Below, piece by piece: positions 31,227 to 49,304 of a stretch of DNA of 49,304 nucleotides. The notes beneath the pieces are model-generated. The model was given only the letters and a program-made list of their open reading frames with translations. It was not told the origin of the DNA and did not search any database. The stretch is from a virus: positions 1-49,304 of the IMG/VR virus record IMGVR_UViG_3300043399_000979; one strand, 5' to 3'. Numbering within the stretch: position 1 is the first letter of the stretch; the number at the start of each line of letters is the position of its first letter. Position numbers and translations under genes: made by a program.

Positions 31227-32852
31227 ATGAAAGAAGAAATAATTGAAAAATATAACAACGGACATTCATTTAACAACCTAACATCAGAATACAGAATCGG
31301 CAAGAAGAAACTAAGGTCAATATTAACAGAGAATGGGATAACCATTAATAAAAAGGGTGGAAAAATAAAAAATAACATAATAGATTTCGATATATCATTT
31401 TTGGATGACAAAAATGTGAAATGTAACTATTGTGAAAAAACATTCTCTGATTCTCACAACAAAAGCGGTGCCTTAACATCACATATATCCTCATGCCAAC
31501 CGCATATTGAAATACCATCACAATTCAAACGTTCCATGTTTTTGAAAACTACTGGAAATTATTGGCATATGCAATATTTTTCAGTTGAAGATAAGCAAGA
31601 AAAGCAATTATTTAATTGCCCATTATGTGATTATAAAACCCCAGACTTGGATAACAAAACTGGCGCAATAACAAAACATATCCAAAAAAATCATGGTACA
31701 ATATTGGAATTTAACAAAAAATTCCCGGGATTAAACTATCTTTTCAACAAACAAATATCACATTTAAATAGAAAAGAAGAATTTGAATCAGATGAAAATT
31801 CTTTTGTTGTTTGCCAAATATGTGAGCAAAAAATGGTCTCCATTACAGAAACCCATTTAGCAAAACATTCCACAAACTTAGAAGAATATCGAAAAAATTA
31901 CCCAAAAAGCGATGTGGTTTCCAACAATTTAAAAGAAACCATAAAAAATAACATCATAAATTCAGAATATAACCCAGAATATAGAAGCAAAGGTGAAATA
32001 GAATTATTTGAATTTGTACAATCAATAGATAATGAAGCAATTCGATGTGATAAAAAAACTTTAAGCGGTATAGAGTTGGACATATTGTGCAAAAAGCATA
32101 ATATTGCCATAGAATATAATGGCCTTTTTTGGCATTCGGAAAAACAAGGGAAAAATAAAAACTATCATCTCGACAAAACTGAAATGTGCCTTAAAAAGGG
32201 CATTAGGTTAATCCACATATTTTCTGATGAATGGGAATGTAAAAAAGAAATTGTTAAATCCAGATTGTTACATTTATTCGGACAAGACACTGAAAAAATA
32301 TATGCCAGAAAATGTGAAATAAAACAACTTGAATCAAAGACAAAATCTGCATTTTTAAATGAATACCACCTCCAAGGTGATGATAAATCTAACATTTCCT
32401 ATGGATTGTACCATAATGGCGAATTGGTCAGCGTGGCGACATTTGGTAAACTCAGAGTAAATCTTGGCCATAAGAATAGAGCTACTAATAGCTGGGAATT
32501 ATATAGGTTCTGTGGTAAAAACGTAGTTGGTGGGTTTTCAAAATTACTTAAAAAATTTATCAAAGAAAATAATCCACAAAAGATAATAACGTATAGTGAT
32601 AGAAATTGGTCGCCTTCGCCCGAACATTCTTTTTATGGTAAGGTGGGTTTTTCATTCCTCTCTTATACAAAACCAAATTACTACTACATGCTTAAATATA
32701 AAAAAAGAGAAAATAGATTCAATTACAGAAAGAGTGTTTTAATCAGTAAAGGTTTTAATGCCAATAAAACTGAAAGGGAAATAATGTTTGAAAACGGATA
32801 TGATGTAATATGGGATTGTGGTAATTTAAAATATGAGATGAATTTTCATTAA
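31227..32852 (+). CDS. Vsr-like (EDxHD) homing endonuclease with zinc fingers and GNAT-like C-terminus
   Basis: 541 residues. Residues 1-40 are a short helix-turn-helix (EYRIGKKKLRSILTENGI). Three zinc-finger-like units follow: Cys66/Cys69/His86/Cys90, Cys131/Cys134/His151/His156 and Cys196/Cys199/His210/His214. The nuclease core at 254-340 has SKGEIELFEF (Glu257), SGIELDILCK (Asp285), IAIEYNGLFWHSE (His303), YHLDKTEM and IRLIHIFSDEW, the layout of Vsr-like homing endonucleases such as I-Bth0305I. The C-terminal 190 residues (ARKCEIKQLESKTKSAFLNE, then ELYRFCGKNVVGGFSKLL and IITYSDR) are the companion GNAT-like domain. It converges on the HNH gene downstream. Confidence 0.85.
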   Translation: MKEEIIEKYNNGHSFNNLTSEYRIGKKKLRSILTENGITINKKGGKIKNNIIDFDISFLDDKNVKCNYCEKTFSDSHNKSGALTSHISSCQPHIEIPSQFKRSMFLKTTGNYWHMQYFSVEDKQEKQLFNCPLCDYKTPDLDNKTGAITKHIQKNHGTILEFNKKFPGLNYLFNKQISHLNRKEEFESDENSFVVCQICEQKMVSITETHLAKHSTNLEEYRKNYPKSDVVSNNLKETIKNNIINSEYNPEYRSKGEIELFEFVQSIDNEAIRCDKKTLSGIELDILCKKHNIAIEYNGLFWHSEKQGKNKNYHLDKTEMCLKKGIRLIHIFSDEWECKKEIVKSRLLHLFGQDTEKIYARKCEIKQLESKTKSAFLNEYHLQGDDKSNISYGLYHNGELVSVATFGKLRVNLGHKNRATNSWELYRFCGKNVVGGFSKLLKKFIKENNPQKIITYSDRNWSPSPEHSFYGKVGFSFLSYTKPNYYYMLKYKKRENRFNYRKSVLISKGFNANKTEREIMFENGYDVIWDCGNLKYEMNFH

Positions 32853-32883
32853 AAAAAATGGGGATTAATAACCCCCATTTTTT
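32853..32883. terminator. Bidirectional intrinsic terminator between convergent endonuclease genes
   Basis: An inverted repeat with stem AAAAAATGGGG (32853-32863) and CCCCATTTTTT (32873-32883), loop of nine bases, lies exactly between the plus-strand stop at 32852 and the minus-strand stop at 32883. A-rich and T-rich flanks give a U-tract on either strand. Confidence 0.85.
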
Positions 32884-34295
32884 TATTTTTTAGGATAAGG
32901 TTTTATTAAATTTTCAATTGATTTAATTAACTCATTATTTTCTTTTTTAGTACCTATAAAGGTAAAATATCTTTTCTTACGACCCAAATTAACAACTTGG
33001 GCTTCTGGAAAATGTTTCATAACATTTTCTTTAGCTGCCGAGCCAATTCGCTCCCTTATGTGTCTTTGGTTGTAAATCTTATCGCCTATCTTGTAACCAT
33101 ATCTAATCCTTTCTTTACCGGTTTTAGTTAAATTACCCCCAAATAATCCAACATAATGCCAGTTTAATGATTGATATATAACACCTATCTCACCAGCAGA
33201 AGAATCTACAGTAGCAGTAACAACTTTATATGAACTATTCTTTTTCAAATATTCTAAAGTTCTTTGTATGAAAAACGATGCTGTATTCTTTGGTGTCCAC
33301 CATAAACAAACCCCCCTACTTAATTGAATGATTTTATTCGTGAAGCCATATTTGTCCCACACCCCTAAGTTCTCGCCATATTCGGGTTGATATGCAACAA
33401 CCCCACCTAAATGATACTTACCATCAACTTCAAAATAAATTCCGAAATGCAGGTTTGTATACCTTGGCATGTAACCTAACCATTCATATTCATCTATTAT
33501 TTTTTCGCAAGTTCTTCTATCAATAACTTCTATTTTAGTTTTATTTAATGATACGTTATTTGGATTAAAGGTTAAACTGTCCCTTTCTTCCATTTCTTTT
33601 TGTTTTCTTATCTTATATTGATGGGCAACAATTCTGTTATTTTTAGAATAATTATCCTTAGCCCACATGGGTTGCAAATTACTCAGAGACCAACATTCTT
33701 TGAAATCCTCACAATCAATACTTTTGAAATTAAATTTTGATGTTGGTATTATATGGTCAATATGCCATTCGCCATAATTTTCCCATGACATACCATCAGT
33801 AAATAGCAGTTCCAAATGCGCCATTAGCTCATCTAAAGTATAACCTAAATAACTGAAATATGATAATTCTTTTTTTTGTTTAATTGAATCCCACACAGCA
33901 GTTTTAAATCTACTTGACAACTTATATTTTATATTTTTATTAATTAATTTTTTTTGATATTCTCTTTTATATTCTTTTAAATACAATTTATTATCCTCCC
34001 TCCATTTTTGGTGGTAATTTTTTATAGTTGTTTTATTATTTTGATAATATTCTTTTTTATATGATTTTAATTTTTCCTTATGTTTTTGATAATATCTTTT
34101 ACAAACTTCTAATTTCCCACCTTTAAATCTCTGTCCGGGTTTAATTATATCAACCCCATTTTCCGAAAGGATTCTTCTTATAGTTGGTTTACTAATACCA
34201 TATTTTTCACCTATTTTAGCCAACCCAATATTATCATTTTTATAAATGTTAGCTATTTCATCTATTTGTTCTTTAGATAATACTATTTTCTTCAT
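32883..34295 (-). CDS. HNH homing endonuclease with Mom/GNAT-like C-terminal domain
   Basis: 470 residues. Residues 1-50 contain a helix-turn-helix (KIGEKYGISKPTIRRILSEN) much like that of the neighbouring Vsr-like endonuclease. A basic Tyr/Lys-rich helical region (65-125) follows. The HNH core is WHIDHIIPTSKFNFKSID (177-194; HIDH 178-181) and SLSNLQPMWAKDN (203-215). Residues 260-470 resemble the Mom-type GNAT-like fold: GGVVAYQPEYG, IIQLSRGVCLWWTPKNTASF, then AGEIGVIYQSLNWHYVGL. Mom modifies adenine in Mu DNA, and its relatives occur fused to phage nucleases. This is probably a selfish homing gene next to the capsid gene; base-modifying activity is unproven. Confidence 0.8.
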   Translation of the reverse strand: MKKIVLSKEQIDEIANIYKNDNIGLAKIGEKYGISKPTIRRILSENGVDIIKPGQRFKGGKLEVCKRYYQKHKEKLKSYKKEYYQNNKTTIKNYHQKWREDNKLYLKEYKREYQKKLINKNIKYKLSSRFKTAVWDSIKQKKELSYFSYLGYTLDELMAHLELLFTDGMSWENYGEWHIDHIIPTSKFNFKSIDCEDFKECWSLSNLQPMWAKDNYSKNNRIVAHQYKIRKQKEMEERDSLTFNPNNVSLNKTKIEVIDRRTCEKIIDEYEWLGYMPRYTNLHFGIYFEVDGKYHLGGVVAYQPEYGENLGVWDKYGFTNKIIQLSRGVCLWWTPKNTASFFIQRTLEYLKKNSSYKVVTATVDSSAGEIGVIYQSLNWHYVGLFGGNLTKTGKERIRYGYKIGDKIYNQRHIRERIGSAAKENVMKHFPEAQVVNLGRKKRYFTFIGTKKENNELIKSIENLIKPYPKK

Positions 34296-42244: not shown

Positions 42245-45200
42245 CTATTTATCTGAACTAATTATTTTATCCACATCTTTTTCAATTTCCAATAAAGATT
42301 TTACTCCCTGTCCGAAGTCAATATGTTTGGCACCTTTCAATATATCATTTTCAATTAAAAGATTTAAACTATTAAACCTATTTTCTGCCGCCACTTCTGG
42401 TTGCGGCGTTTCACCACCTGCTGGGGGCGGCGTTTCTGGCAATCCACCCAATTCGCCACCGCCCATTTCTGGCAACCCACCAGTTGGCGGCGTCTCTGTG
42501 GTTTGTTGTGCGGTTGTTGCACCAGAGGTGCTTCCATATAATTTATCCAAATTATCAAAAAGACCAGTTTTCTTTATAATTAAAGGTGTTGCTTTAAGTT
42601 CCTCACCAACAGCCCTTTCTATTCTTTGTTGTTGTAAATCAATTCTAATTTCCTCGTCTGAAAAACCAAATATATGTTTTTTAGCCCAAGTAGCCGATAC
42701 CGGTTGAATACCACTTCCGGGGTCGGCAGTAGCGTCTTTATATAACAACATTTTTTCTTTCCAAATATCAATTTTTAATAAATCGGCCTGTGTGGATGGG
42801 TTAGTTAATGTTAAAGTAAAGTTTGTTAATTCATCTTCAAAACCCAATAGGTATAAATGTACTATCGCTATTTTGTTCAACTCTGCAATCATTGACTTTT
42901 GTATCCTGTTTATAGTCCTTGCAAACCTTATATCTTGTAAAGCCAATGTTTTACCGTCCCCTACAGCTTCTTCAAAACCCAAAAACGCTTTTGGTATCCT
43001 AAGTGCTGTAACCATTTTTTTCTGTATGTATTCTATATCCGCTATCTCCCCTAAATTTGAATTTTTGATGAAAATACCAGATTCAATTGCAAATGTATGA
43101 TAATTGTGGAATATTTCGTTACCATCAACTGTTATTGTGCCGGTATCTAACTTTTCATTTAAAATTTCAATGTTTGTAATTTTATGGTTATGTAACTTTT
43201 CTACAATTTTAAATTTACGCTTTCTTTTTGAATTTTTAGTTATTTTGGTTAATTTTTTATTGCTTTCGCTTTTAAAGTCTATCCATCTATGTTCATTAAT
43301 ACTCCACACTTTTTTTGTATTGGAAATATCTTCCTTCTTTGAATAAAATGGCATTAATGAATCCCCAACCTTTAAATCCTTTGCTTCTATAAAACCATAA
43401 TATCTATGTACAAATTTATGGTCTGGGGTTGATATGACAGTTTTACCGTTATCTAAAGTTATTTTAATTACATCTGCATTTTTTCTGGTCACACCAGCCC
43501 ATGTTATTAAACCCGGTGCGACATCCCCAGTTTCTGGATTACAAGAATAAACCCACAAACCCCTAACACCAGAATCCCACTCTTGTATTATATCTGAAAG
43601 TGAAAGGGTTCTACCGTCCAATAAAGGAATTTTTGTATCTAAAGAAATGCAAGCCCCTGCCAATGTTTCAATTGGATTTGGTGCCGCTGGGTCTCTAACC
43701 GGAATAAAATAATCTTGGTCGACGGCCATTTGATTATATCTTAAATCAACATTTCCTGTTTTAGAATCTACTATTTGCTCCCTTTTAAACTTGTTTGCCA
43801 CCCTTTGTACATAAGCCTCCACGTCATTATCATCCATATTCCCTACAAATACTTTAAAAACCCTTCTTTCTGGAGCCCTTGAAGTTCTATATATTAACAT
43901 AGCATCTTCCGCAAGCAATAATTGTTTCCATGTGCGTCTGGCTTTTTCTAACATGGAATTATGTACAACTATTCCGTTTGCATAAAAATTATGATTTTCG
44001 TTTTCAACGTATATGTCGTGTGTTTCAAATTCACCCACGTCTATGATTTTAACAATAGGTTCCAAAACATATTCATCCGATAATCTATTTGGGTTATCAT
44101 GTTTTTTTGTTTGTTCTAAATAAGAATCATAGAATGTTAAGGAATACGAGTTTGAAGGATTTAATATCTTTCTCCCCTCAATTACAATATTTTTTCTAGG
44201 TTCCCTCTTTCTTATACTACCACTCTTATAGCCTATTTTTTGACATAATGTTTTAACATCGTTTACAAGCGGTTCATTACACAATTCTATATTTATGTGG
44301 GTTGACCATTTATCTTCAGTAATCCACCCGTCTGCATCAATTATTCCTGTTAAAAATGATTTTTGTATATCAATATTAGCTTCGTATATCCATAATGGCA
44401 ATCTTTTTGTGTGTGCTTTTCCCACAAAATCCATTCTTTTAAGGACAGTTGATAAACATTTAGAATTAACTAAAACCTGAATTTCTACATCATTTTTATT
44501 TTTTATTATTTTCGCCGGATTATTACTAAATCTATTTAGTAGCCCAATATAATAGTCGTTTAAATCATCATATTCGGATAATGCGAAATAAACCGCATTA
44601 TTTGAAATCCAACCATCACCATATAGAAAACCTAAAAGTCTGGCAAAATCCGCATCAACATAATCTGGTAACGCATCAATATCATTAAACCATCCATTTT
44701 TATTCTCGGTTGGTTTAGTTTTGTCAATTTTTATTTCTTTTGACAGATTTTTAGAATTATTAATAACTAAAACGTCGCCAACTCTTATATCCAAAACGTT
44801 TTTATAAACAAAATCTCCATTCTCAAAAATCAAGATTTTATGTTCATTAGAGGCTTCAACAAAATTATGTTTTGTGTGTAATTTAAAACATGGTTTAACA
44901 CCTGATTTAACCACATCTAAAACTTTTGATAATTCCCTTTTTTGGGTTTTTAAATCAAAAGACCAAACTAAATCCCCTTTCTGAATATCTTTTATTTCTT
45001 TAATTCCATATTCTGTATCAATTTTAGTATCATATTTTAAACAAGTCCCATACGGAAGTTTCCTATCATCCCCCAACAATCTAAAGTGGGCAATTTCCCA
45101 TGGTTGGAACTCCATGTTTCTATTTGTCCATCTAAAATGTAGGCTTTTTGTTGGTTCTGATTTTTCTAAATATAAAGGCGATTTTTCAGAACTGCCCGGT

Positions 45201-45751
45201 TCAATCCTTTGTATTTCAATATTTGGTAATTGATGGCAACCAACAATACCTTTTTCTGGGTCTAATTTAAGATATACAAAATTATCACCATATTTACAGG
45301 TGTTCCTTGTCCACATGGTTAGGTTTGTGTTTATGTCCAACACATTAACAAATAAATCGGTTAATATGGATTGTATCCTGCTCGATTCAGAAAATATGCT
45401 CAATATATGACCATCTTCGTTTGTGCTTGTCGATTCTTCAGCGTATATATCCAATGCAGCAGATATTTCAGGCGTATATTCCATTGATTCGTAATCATAC
45501 ACACTGGATAATCTGGTGGGTTCATAATATACAGCCTGAGAATACATATTATGTTCCACTTTAGCCCATTGGCCGGATAAATACCAAGTTTGTTGTGCTT
45601 GTAATTTTTCTTTTTCAAACTCAGCCTTGCTGGTTGTCCTTAAAAGTTCTTTTTTATCAAAACTATAAACAGGATAATCCTGATTTGATAATCCGTGTGG
45701 CCCGAAATAGCGTGACAGTTTCTGCCAAATAGTTAAATTATTATTTTCCAT
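42245..45751 (-). CDS. Portal protein (T4 gp20-like) containing two inteins
   Basis: 1168 codons; removing two inteins (residues 237-598 and 701-897) leaves 609 residues, near T4 gp20 (524) plus a Pro/Gly-rich tail. Extein blocks match gp20: YTPEISAALDIYAEES, FRLLGDDRKLPYGT joined to SMLEKARRTWKQLLLAEDAM, then YRTSRAPERRVFKVFVGNMD, and IETLAGA joined to SNLGEIADIEYIQKKM. The portal forms the dodecameric DNA gate and packaging-motor dock. The C-terminal region has a low-complexity run (GGLPEMGGGELGGLPETPPP). Both inteins sit in conserved portal segments, so splicing is needed for function. The gene follows an ART-like accessory gene by 42 bases. Confidence 0.93.
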   Translation of the reverse strand: MENNNLTIWQKLSRYFGPHGLSNQDYPVYSFDKKELLRTTSKAEFEKEKLQAQQTWYLSGQWAKVEHNMYSQAVYYEPTRLSSVYDYESMEYTPEISAALDIYAEESTSTNEDGHILSIFSESSRIQSILTDLFVNVLDINTNLTMWTRNTCKYGDNFVYLKLDPEKGIVGCHQLPNIEIQRIEPGSSEKSPLYLEKSEPTKSLHFRWTNRNMEFQPWEIAHFRLLGDDRKLPYGTCLKYDTKIDTEYGIKEIKDIQKGDLVWSFDLKTQKRELSKVLDVVKSGVKPCFKLHTKHNFVEASNEHKILIFENGDFVYKNVLDIRVGDVLVINNSKNLSKEIKIDKTKPTENKNGWFNDIDALPDYVDADFARLLGFLYGDGWISNNAVYFALSEYDDLNDYYIGLLNRFSNNPAKIIKNKNDVEIQVLVNSKCLSTVLKRMDFVGKAHTKRLPLWIYEANIDIQKSFLTGIIDADGWITEDKWSTHINIELCNEPLVNDVKTLCQKIGYKSGSIRKREPRKNIVIEGRKILNPSNSYSLTFYDSYLEQTKKHDNPNRLSDEYVLEPIVKIIDVGEFETHDIYVENENHNFYANGIVVHNSMLEKARRTWKQLLLAEDAMLIYRTSRAPERRVFKVFVGNMDDNDVEAYVQRVANKFKREQIVDSKTGNVDLRYNQMAVDQDYFIPVRDPAAPNPIETLAGACISLDTKIPLLDGRTLSLSDIIQEWDSGVRGLWVYSCNPETGDVAPGLITWAGVTRKNADVIKITLDNGKTVISTPDHKFVHRYYGFIEAKDLKVGDSLMPFYSKKEDISNTKKVWSINEHRWIDFKSESNKKLTKITKNSKRKRKFKIVEKLHNHKITNIEILNEKLDTGTITVDGNEIFHNYHTFAIESGIFIKNSNLGEIADIEYIQKKMVTALRIPKAFLGFEEAVGDGKTLALQDIRFARTINRIQKSMIAELNKIAIVHLYLLGFEDELTNFTLTLTNPSTQADLLKIDIWKEKMLLYKDATADPGSGIQPVSATWAKKHIFGFSDEEIRIDLQQQRIERAVGEELKATPLIIKKTGLFDNLDKLYGSTSGATTAQQTTETPPTGGLPEMGGGELGGLPETPPPAGGETPQPEVAAENRFNSLNLLIENDILKGAKHIDFGQGVKSLLEIEKDVDKIISSDK
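43061..43651 (-). mobile_element. Intein 2 of portal gene (mini-intein, 197 residues)
   Basis: Starts with Cys701 (CISLDTKIPLLDGRTLSL, block A), has VISTPDHKFVHR (block B with TxxH) and ends IESGIFIKN before an extein Ser. There is no LAGLIDADG block; the centre is a short basic segment, so it is a mini-intein without an endonuclease. The penultimate residue is Lys rather than the usual His, while the final Asn and +1 Ser are kept. It is inserted between ETLAGA and SNLGEI of the portal. Confidence 0.9.
43958..45043 (-). mobile_element. Intein 1 of portal gene (large intein with LAGLIDADG endonuclease, 362 residues)
   Basis: Starts with Cys237 (CLKYDTKIDTEYGIKEIKDI, block A), has FVEASNEHKILIF (block B), two LAGLIDADG-type motifs LLGFLYGDGWIS and FLTGIIDADGWIT, block F VGEFETHDIYVENENHNFY, and ends NGIVVHN (block G with His-Asn) before an extein Ser. 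It is a complete bifunctional intein that could splice and home. The site is the gp20 motif KLPYG, between PYGT and SMLEKARR. Confidence 0.95.
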
Positions 45752-46372: not shown

Positions 46373-48045
46373 TTTCCTTTTAATTTTGGGTACATTTCAT
46401 CTAATTCTTCTTTTGAATATTTTGCCAAACCAGAATGTCTTATGTAAATTTCTCCTTTAACTTCCAAGTTTTCTGGTAACGATTCTATTTTTATACAATT
46501 TTCTAAATTCAAACTTCCTCCAATCATTTCAAGTTTCTCCAAACTGTTCAATGACGTACAATTTCTTAAACTTAAATCACCCCCAACTGTTTGAAGGTTT
46601 CCAAGGTCTATTAATGAGGTGCAATTAAATAAATACAAATTTTCCTCAACTCTTTCAAGTTTTCCAAGACTTTTTAAGGAGATGCATTTACGTAAATCCA
46701 AACCCTCACCAACTGTTTGAAGGTTTCCGAGGCTTGTTAAAGATGTACAACCATATAAATTTAAATTGCTACCAATTGTTTGAAGATTTTCAAGGCTTGT
46801 TAATGAGGTGCAATTTTCTAAATTCAAACTTCCTCCAATCATTTCAAGTTTCTCCAAACTGTTCAATGACGTACAATTTCTTAAACTTAAATCACCCCCA
46901 ACTGTTTGAAGGTTTCCAAGGTCTATTAATGAGGTGCAATTAAATAAATACAAATTTTCCTCAACTCTTTCAAGTTTTCCAAGACTTTTTAAGGAGATGC
47001 AATTTTCTAAATCAAACAATCCATTAACCGTTTGAAGATTCTCAAGGCTTATTAATGAGGTGCAACGATTCAAAGACAAATACTCCCCAACTGTTTGAAT
47101 ATTTCCAAGACTTTTTAATAACTTACAACTGTATAAATCAATACTCCCATATATTATTTTCCAATGTTCTGGAAATTTTTCTATGTTTTTATAAGATAAA
47201 TCTAAATGTCCCTTAAACCCTTTTTCTTCAAAATTTTTTAATTTAAGTTCAACTATGTTTTCTTTTGGTATATTAAATAAAATTATTATATCGTTTGATA
47301 TGCCACTTGAATTTTTTAATATTTCTTTTCTAAAAATATTAAATAAATCTTCATTATTATATAAAAATTGTTCCCATTCTCCCAAATCTTCATCGTCTTT
47401 ATCTCTAAATTGTTCATCTTCAAAATGAAATTGATATTTTTCTGATTCATCTTGTTTATTTATGACAATATAAAGATTCCCGCTTGAATTATAATCATCA
47501 AAATGATTTTCTCTGTCTTGATAATCTGGATTTAAGCAATATTGTCCATCTGCTGTACACCATTCTGTATTTACCCCCAGATAAGCAGCTCCTTTTTCGG
47601 TTTTTGGAATAAAAACCCACCAATTGTCAGAACCTTTAAGTTCTTCATAATCAACTCCAGAATCTAATTTCTCAAGTATATCTTCAATTGATGAATCTAT
47701 ATTTAATATCTTGTCTTCTATTATATTATAAATCTCCGGTAATGTTTGAACTGTATTTGGAATTGAACGATTATATTTATAAACAAGTTTTAAATAATAT
47801 TTTGCTTTCGATAAATCTTCCAAAGGTAAATTATCGTTCTTAAACATGTTAATAAGCAACTTCGCATATCTTCCCACTTTGACACCTTTAATTGTTTTCG
47901 GGTCTGCTTCTACTATTTGGTCAAATATCCTTCTGTTTATGTCAGAATAATATTTCTGATATATTTCATCTGGAGATAAAGTTTTATCTTCAACCAAATG
48001 ATTAACAAATTCCCTAAACTGATTTTCTGTTATTAATATTTCCAT
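46360..48045 (-). CDS. Leucine-rich-repeat protein with WCT-type phage domain and N-terminal ITE tag
   Basis: 561 residues. The tag MEILITENQFREFVNHLVED is followed by a helical part, then a recurrent phage domain at about 125-235: DNWWVFIPKTEKGAAYLG, NTEWCTADGQY, NLYIVINKQDESEKYQFHFE and EQFRDKDDEDLG. This WCT-type domain occurs in many large-phage proteins but has no known activity that I can name. Residues about 295-515 are eleven or so 21-residue repeats (LGNLQTVGGDLSLRNCTSLN), then a cap ending MYPKLKGKWKY. A 191-base stretch of the repeat region is duplicated exactly. The cap codons overlap the tag of the next gene. Confidence 0.78.
   Translation of the reverse strand: MEILITENQFREFVNHLVEDKTLSPDEIYQKYYSDINRRIFDQIVEADPKTIKGVKVGRYAKLLINMFKNDNLPLEDLSKAKYYLKLVYKYNRSIPNTVQTLPEIYNIIEDKILNIDSSIEDILEKLDSGVDYEELKGSDNWWVFIPKTEKGAAYLGVNTEWCTADGQYCLNPDYQDRENHFDDYNSSGNLYIVINKQDESEKYQFHFEDEQFRDKDDEDLGEWEQFLYNNEDLFNIFRKEILKNSSGISNDIIILFNIPKENIVELKLKNFEEKGFKGHLDLSYKNIEKFPEHWKIIYGSIDLYSCKLLKSLGNIQTVGEYLSLNRCTSLISLENLQTVNGLFDLENCISLKSLGKLERVEENLYLFNCTSLIDLGNLQTVGGDLSLRNCTSLNSLEKLEMIGGSLNLENCTSLTSLENLQTIGSNLNLYGCTSLTSLGNLQTVGEGLDLRKCISLKSLGKLERVEENLYLFNCTSLIDLGNLQTVGGDLSLRNCTSLNSLEKLEMIGGSLNLENCIKIESLPENLEVKGEIYIRHSGLAKYSKEELDEMYPKLKGKWKY
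46496..47001 (-). repeat. Exact 191-base direct repeat in LRR gene (period 315 bases)
   Basis: Bases 46496-46686 equal 46811-47001 over all positions read. The distance is 315 bases, five 63-base units, so a block of five 21-residue repeats has been duplicated, and three of the five units remain identical. Elsewhere the repeats have diverged, which points to a recent duplication by recombination. Confidence 0.9.
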
Positions 48046-48054
48046 TGACTATAA

Positions 48055-49304
48055 TTATTTTTTACCTCCGCCAAATAACCAATTGTATTTCATATAATCA
48101 TCTCTAGTGGCAGTATTTTGAAATTGTCTATGTCTTGCCTCAGTTTGTGGTATCATGGGATTAAAGAAATCAGAACGGTCTTTGAATGGGTTTTCTGTTG
48201 ATTGCCAAGAATTTAACATTGCTTTTGTGTGGTTTGTAACTTTTTCCAAAGATTGAAAAGACTTCTCCGCAACATACAAAGCCATTGAAATTGCCATTAT
48301 GCAATCGTCATGGTGTCCTTTTTGATGGTCTGGCCTTCCGTTTATATAAATAAATGTGTTCATTTCATTATATAAGCGTTTTGAATATATTTTAAAACCA
48401 TGTCTCAAACCTTCCTCAAAAGATGCTATTATTTGAACCCTTTTATTATTAAAATTTATTCCCGGTATTTTTTCCAATAATTTTGGGTCGTACTTCCATT
48501 TATTTGTCGTGTCTGAATTGTCATAGTACATATTGGTATAACCTAATTCCTGTAATTTTCTTGCTGTCGCAACCCCCATACCTCCGGTCAAATCTACAAC
48601 AACAAAAGCCTTGTACATGGTCGCCCATTTAAAAACCACTTCTGCAAGAACGTCTGGCGGTATTTTACCCACAAATTCAAGAACTTGTTCGTTTGTATCA
48701 AAATCAATTATTTCTATGGAAGAAAAATCTTCAGAATCCCCACGGCTAACATCCGCACCCAACACATATCTATGCCCATTTTCAGGTTCTTTAAATATCC
48801 ACAATGCGTTACCCATTAGTTTTGTCGGCGCATCGGTTATCATATTTTTACCTACGTTCTGTATTATTTCTGCGCTAAATACGTTATCACCAGAACCCAA
48901 AAACCTTCCTTCAATTTCTTGTGATACTTTTCTCCTGTCATATTTCAGTTTTTTAACCATCCCCTCAAACCAAGTTGAACTTGGCTGATAACCCTGCTCA
49001 ATATATCTTGTCACCATATCTTGGTCTCTGTCATAAGAGTTGGTATGTGATAAATCTACTATTAAATCATTGGAATATTGTTCTCTATTGAGTAAAAAAT
49101 GTATAATGTCATCAGTTTTCACCATGTATAAATCTTTGGTGTACCTTGGGTCTCGATGCCACAACATTTCTGTTATCTTAAATTCATTTATACCCCTTAA
49201 TGCTTGGTCGTATATTTCGTAATATATTGGGTCATAACCGTTTGGTGTTGATATAACAATAACCTTACCACCAGTGTTGTGCGAAATTATCCCATTGCTA
49301 ATAA
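48055..49304 (-). CDS. Terminase large subunit (T4 gp17-like), N-terminus outside window
   Basis: 416 codons visible; the frame is open to the right edge, so the ATPase Walker motifs lie outside. The first visible codons give GGKVIVISTPNGYDPIYYEI, which includes the STPNG coupling motif of the ATPase domain; an internal ATG at 49167 is not the start. The RNase H-like nuclease domain follows with acidic sites in RYVLGADVSRGDSEDF, VVVDLTGGMG and KGHHDDCIMAISMAL. The enzyme pumps and cuts DNA during packaging at the portal. The stop is ten bases before the LRR gene start. In T4, genes 18 and 19 lie between 17 and 20; here accessory genes take that place. Confidence 0.95.
   Translation of the reverse strand, partial: ISNGIISHNTGGKVIVISTPNGYDPIYYEIYDQALRGINEFKITEMLWHRDPRYTKDLYMVKTDDIIHFLLNREQYSNDLIVDLSHTNSYDRDQDMVTRYIEQGYQPSSTWFEGMVKKLKYDRRKVSQEIEGRFLGSGDNVFSAEIIQNVGKNMITDAPTKLMGNALWIFKEPENGHRYVLGADVSRGDSEDFSSIEIIDFDTNEQVLEFVGKIPPDVLAEVVFKWATMYKAFVVVDLTGGMGVATARKLQELGYTNMYYDNSDTTNKWKYDPKLLEKIPGINFNNKRVQIIASFEEGLRHGFKIYSKRLYNEMNTFIYINGRPDHQKGHHDDCIMAISMALYVAEKSFQSLEKVTNHTKAMLNSWQSTENPFKDRSDFFNPMIPQTEARHRQFQNTATRDDYMKYNWLFGGGKK

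Follow-up and report, generated by a model that had tools for sequence, protein, structure and literature searches.

Inteins in phage portal genes have been described in mycobacteriophages, including some in which the penultimate residue is Gly, Lys or Ser (Kelley et al. 2016, PMC5050341), two inteins within one gene of the packaging motor are known from the large terminase of cyanophage Mic1 (PMC7156551), and crAss-like phages have intein-rich genomes (PMC7886860). Portal inteins, inteins ending in Lys-Asn and twin inteins in a motor gene have all been described before, and the pair analyzed here, from the T4-type portal gene (gp20) of a viral sequence of 49,304 nucleotides (IMGVR_UViG_3300043399_000979; hereafter the window, whose source record is a 49-kb fragment), are further examples. 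Like the mycobacteriophage inteins (Kelley et al. 2016, PMC5050341), among which the penultimate His is often replaced, they are of class 1 and have a portal gene as host, but here the portal is a member of the T4 gp20 family, and throughout one site-specific intein family the Lys state is fixed. The likeness to Mic1 (PMC7156551) lies in two inteins per motor gene, of which the large one bears a homing endonuclease domain; there, however, the host is the terminase of a long-tailed phage, whereas the window has portal gp20 plus one terminase intein. Independent sites at which empty and filled alleles coexist, as in gp20, are also seen in the haloarchaeal MCM gene with its four intein sites (PMC10643990), although MCM is an archaeal helicase and gp20 a viral structural gene with at least ten sites among the relatives. 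In named phage records, the only intein-bearing T4-like portal among the matches listed was that of the uncultured 484-kb phage LR756508.1, which harbors three inteins, one of them at our intein 1 site; its second and third sites are different and its portal is about 35-42% identical to that of the window. No description of a gp20 portal intein was found in a limited sample of the literature (PMC5259590, PMC3185647).

The portal ORF of the window encodes 1168 aa, of which 609 aa are predicted to make up the extein after splicing, and its reading frame is unbroken through both inteins. The Portal_T4 match (PF07230) reaches 224.6 bits against a cut-off of 22.9 for the curated profile and falls into three pieces, with Intein_splicing and LAGLIDADG_3 matches (Pfam) between them. 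By alignment, the inteins are located near residues 251/252 and 353/354 in T4 gp20 numbering. The principal features are:

42245-45751, minus strand: ORF of the T4-type portal protein (gp20) with two inteins inside (Pfam Portal_T4, 2.7e-66; PHROG portal)
43958-45043, minus strand: intein 1, 362 aa (portal ORF aa 237-598), class 1, site LPYGT/SMLEK, with LAGLIDADG endonuclease and His-Asn end (sequence and AlphaFold model)
43061-43651, minus strand: intein 2, 197 aa (portal ORF aa 701-897), mini-intein, site LAGA/SNLGE, with Cys1 and Lys-Asn end and without endonuclease (sequence and AlphaFold model)
43058-43060, minus strand: Ser+1 nucleophile of site 2, mostly Gln in intein-free relatives (empty-site comparison)

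A scan of viral contigs yielded 523 relatives. We retained the best 80, about 60 of which have intein-free portals. These are about 70% identical to the extein of the window, and in them both sites are empty, the inserts being absent precisely at the splice junctions. Empty site 1 reads LPYG-x/Ser in all 73 distinct sequences, LPYGT/S being the junction in the window, so that intein 1 restores the original protein, its Ser nucleophile being already present in the empty gene. At site 2, by contrast, the 47 distinct empty sequences read TL(P/A)GA followed by Gln (43), Ala (2), Ser (1) or Thr (1), whereas Ser+1 occurs in all complete filled alleles, as read by a parser that accepted Ser or Thr. 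This implies a Gln-to-Ser change in the spliced portal. The lone empty site 2 with Ser, at position 338 (window extein numbering) of the L021 portal, may be a trace left by an intein since lost. The initial annotation had proposed two inteins in the portal gene, one full with a LAGLIDADG endonuclease and one mini-intein, both within conserved portal segments, and had suggested alignment to intein-free gp20 proteins. Splice residues, motifs and empty sites agree with it in every one of these points, with identical coordinates and junctions. An assembly artefact is unlikely, as both inteins recur, in unchanged order and at 74% DNA identity, in a contig from another metagenome (L004).

Intein 1 has the residues by which we recognized class 1, namely Cys, Ser or Thr at position 1, a C-terminal Asn and Cys, Ser or Thr at +1 (here Cys1, Asn362 and Ser+1); the normal splice residues and the two dodecapeptide motifs reported earlier are indeed there:

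44603-44638, minus strand: LAGLIDADG motif 1, LLGFLYGDGWIS, intein 1 aa 136-147 (read from sequence)
44324-44356, minus strand: LAGLIDADG motif 2 around TGIIDADG, intein 1 aa 230-240 (Pfam LAGLIDADG_3, 1.3e-7)

Thirteen alleles of the site could be aligned over their full length, and the L060 intein from a neighboring site aligns as well. Cys1, His68 of block B, Asp343 and His351 of block F and the terminal His361-Asn362 are invariant in the 13 to 15 alleles covering them; block B has Ser in place of Thr. Gly142-Asp143-Gly144 of motif 1 (LLGFLYGDGWI) is invariant in 15 alleles, and Gly233, Asp238 and Gly239 of motif 2 (FLTGIIDADGW) are likewise invariant. The Hint fold and the LAGLIDADG endonuclease domain were both found by Pfam, in the AlphaFold model (pLDDT 91.5) and by structure comparison, with matches to the TliVMA intein with its endonuclease (7qsu; VIA Z 30.1 over 315 residues) and to the PhoVMA intein (7qst; Z 27.1). 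These two share the architecture of intein 1 but belong to an archaeal V-ATPase gene and are only 17-20% identical to it. Between the window and L004, dN/dS is 0.13 for intein 1 overall and 0.15 for its endonuclease part, values that are approximate because dS is near saturation for the window's own pairs; the endonuclease seems, from this, to be under constraint.

Intein 2 also carries the class 1 residues (Cys1, Thr75-Pro-Asp-His78 in block B, Asn197 and Ser+1), and Thr75, His78, His185 and Asn197 are invariant across 39 aligned alleles. As first annotated, it has no endonuclease and ends in Lys-Asn rather than His-Asn. The penultimate His is usual but not universal, and class 1 membership does not depend on it, since exceptions are known (PMC5050341, PMC4031507).

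43205-43342, minus strand: linker of intein 2, aa 104-149, where full alleles have an HNH endonuclease (low model confidence, neutral drift)
43061-43066, minus strand: codons of penultimate Lys196 and Asn197 (allele comparison)
43097-43099, minus strand: codon of His185 (block F), candidate stand-in for the penultimate His (invariant in 39 aligned alleles)

Its model (pLDDT 88.3 overall, about 97 in the core and 47-52 in the linker) has the Hint fold (Foldseek 1.8e-7; VIA Z 20.9 to NrdJ-1 and 20.2 to Mtu RecA). Since the models of both inteins match solved inteins (Z 30.1 for intein 1), chance resemblance can be excluded. The best named-family match of intein 2 is NCBIfam NF052663 (RtcB_rel_intein2), at 4.7e-28 over its N-terminal half, although this family models an intein-bearing RtcB-like protein and the score is far below the full-length cut-off. 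For the window against L004, dN/dS is about 0.12 in the splicing halves and 0.97 in the linker, with the same near-saturated dS, a pattern expected of a functional splicing domain that encloses a dead insertion point.

The relatives provide a view of how this state may have come about. At the intein 2 site they harbor either inteins of about 390-500 aa, most of which have an HNH endonuclease where intein 2 has its linker, or shorter ones that lack the endonuclease. In a phylogeny of the splicing halves the short alleles are scattered among the full ones, the nearest to that of the window being a full allele (L089), and explaining the eight short alleles takes eight changes, of which three or more are forced by well-supported branches. 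The endonuclease has been lost repeatedly at this site, and a single origin of the mini alleles is unsupported. One natural pair is L004 and L095, which have 96-99% identical extein DNA and yet differ in intein content. Of positions 92, 151, 236 and 338, the L095 portal is occupied only at the last, by a full HNH intein, whereas in L004 all four are filled: 338 holds a mini-intein, 151 and 236 each have an intein, and at 92 there is the end of one within which the contig begins; the splicing halves of the two inteins at 338 are separated by eight synonymous and no amino-acid changes. In another pair of inteins at 338 (L126:3239-4576 and L135:4001-5497) the splicing halves are nearly identical while the central endonuclease parts are different, which suggests an exchange of endonucleases.

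A third intein, which the initial annotation did not mention, reaches into the window from its edge:

49276-49302, minus strand: C-terminal end (ISNGIISHN) of an intein in the large terminase gene, the rest being cut off by the window edge (comparison with L165-L167)
48055-49275, minus strand: C-extein of the large terminase (gp17; PHROG terminase large subunit, 1.5e-13, and translation)

The junction reads ISNGIISHN/TGGKVIVISTPNG, the extein resuming at TGGKVIVISTPNG. At the same terminase site L165 has a complete LAGLIDADG-type intein ending in SNGIISHN, and L166 and L167 have its end; 77 of the best 80 relatives have an empty SLS/TGGKV site with no insert. Taken with the portal inteins, this end points to a phage with inteins in both packaging-motor genes. 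Elsewhere in the window, the proteins starting at 48045, 46372 and 41515 (minus strand) have the N-terminus MEILITE(N/S)Q in common, and two have tails similar to leucine-rich repeats; as the I-x-E motif is reminiscent of the sites cleaved by the T4 prohead protease, all three may be packaged head proteins. A 541-aa protein (31227-32852, plus strand) with a BED zinc finger matches a homing endonuclease PHROG, and adjoining it is a protein with parts resembling endonuclease VII and Mom (32883-34295, minus strand).

We consider it very probable that both inserts are class 1 cis-splicing inteins, intein 1 being mobile and intein 2 a former HNH intein with an ancestral Lys-Asn end. We infer that both excise themselves from the portal precursor, joining PYGT-SMLE and LAGA-SNLG to give the 609-aa portal. 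Intein 1 would be complete and mobile, and the empty LPYGT-S site is most likely still a target of its LAGLIDADG endonuclease. Judged from sequence, intein 2 most likely splices actively and goes back to an HNH-bearing ancestor; loss of the endonuclease would have left a drifting linker, and the intein would persist because failed splicing would destroy the portal. That the two segments are instead portal domains, or Hint domains that do not splice, is extremely unlikely: the continuous reading frame would fit such a view, but it is contradicted by the many portals that lack both segments exactly at the splice junctions, by the presence of every splice residue and by the fold of intein 1, which is that of an intein with endonuclease. 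The end of intein 2 deserves more attention, as the initial annotation regarded Lys-Asn as a sign that this intein may splice slowly or need a compensating change. Asn cyclisation is normally helped by the penultimate His (PMC5050341) and the linker is poorly ordered in the model, so intein 2 might be a decaying, slow splicer in which His was changed to Lys by damage and which limits the supply of portal. However, of 43 distinct complete alleles, 40 have Lys at the penultimate position and one each has Phe, Ser or Leu (the allele with Leu-Asn being the 370-aa intein of L149), but none has His. Lys is thus typical of the family, also in alleles retaining the HNH endonuclease, and hence ancestral. 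The strong purifying selection on the splicing halves also speaks against decay, as does the finding that introducing His into a mycobacteriophage intein with penultimate Gly made splicing slower (PMC5050341). On allele conservation and selection we reject the damage explanation, which we hold to be very unlikely, nor do they support Lys-Asn as the mark of a slow or impaired intein. The idea of a compensating residue fares better, as the invariant His185 of block F is a plausible one and would probably help Asn cyclisation; in inteins without a penultimate His, that role can reportedly fall to the block F His (PMC5050341). The splicing rates of intein 1, with its block B Ser, and of intein 2, with Lys196, could nevertheless differ from those of textbook inteins.

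Another possibility is that the inteins are kept as a post-translational switch by which regulated splicing times portal assembly. Their presence in both portal and terminase, the two genes of the packaging motor, would be in keeping with this, and such control has been proposed for the two terminase inteins of Mic1 (PMC7156551). One would then hardly expect intein presence to be as erratic among near-identical genes as it is in L004 and L095, and the many intein-free relatives are what parasites would predict rather than a needed switch. We regard a switch as unlikely.

Twin inteins in a head gene had been thought unusual, a view that the relatives do not bear out. In a spliced alignment of representative relatives, portal inteins occur at at least ten positions (about 88, 92, 97, 106, 151, 236, 248, 313, 324, 338, 372 and 378 in window extein numbering), those one or two residues apart being not all separable and the parse of the L110 insertion near 106 being unreliable. 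The L149 portal has four complete inteins, those of L004 and L159 have at least four when partial ones are counted, and several others have three, counts that do not measure prevalence because the relatives were found with intein-bearing queries.

Some of these inteins start with Pro (L107:2513-3013, L004:245-1516, L022:5874-7115 and others). Class 3 inteins have been attributed to one origin and marked by a Trp-Cys-Thr triplet with rare deviations (PMC4031507, PMC7891396); we took a position 1 without nucleophile and a Cys at block F position 4 as diagnostic. Intein 2 itself is not of class 3, as it has Cys1, and Thr172 aligns with the block F position. Among the inteins sampled at 151 and 313, Pro1 was found in 14 of 15 and the block F Cys was invariant, while the class 3 Trp position is occupied by Tyr or Phe where readable and the Thr position by a hydrophobic residue; the intein of L161 retains Cys1 beside the block F Cys. 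A profile built on the N-terminal halves of intein 2 and its family detects most inteins at 151 and 313 (about 1e-16 to 1e-27), and a sequence search of the PDB for a relative of the Pro1 inteins gave weak class 1-type matches only. On a more speculative view, somewhat less likely than not, gp20 of these uncultivated T4-like phages would be an intein hub, with at least ten positions and as many as four inteins in a single gene, and the 151/313 inteins would have changed their chemistry independently and so represent a second origin of class-3-type splicing, from the family of intein 2.

With a full intein and one lacking the endonuclease side by side in a single gene, the pair in the window is a well-defined natural case, and the relatives supply before-and-after pairs for the gain of inteins, for the loss of endonucleases and perhaps for their exchange. 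The family with Lys-Asn ends is a good test set for splicing without the penultimate His. With the Gln-to-Ser change at site 2, the predicted peptide would separate portals with a spliced intein from those never invaded. Because the inteins reside in conserved parts of gp20, surveys based on this gene may miss or misassemble such phages.
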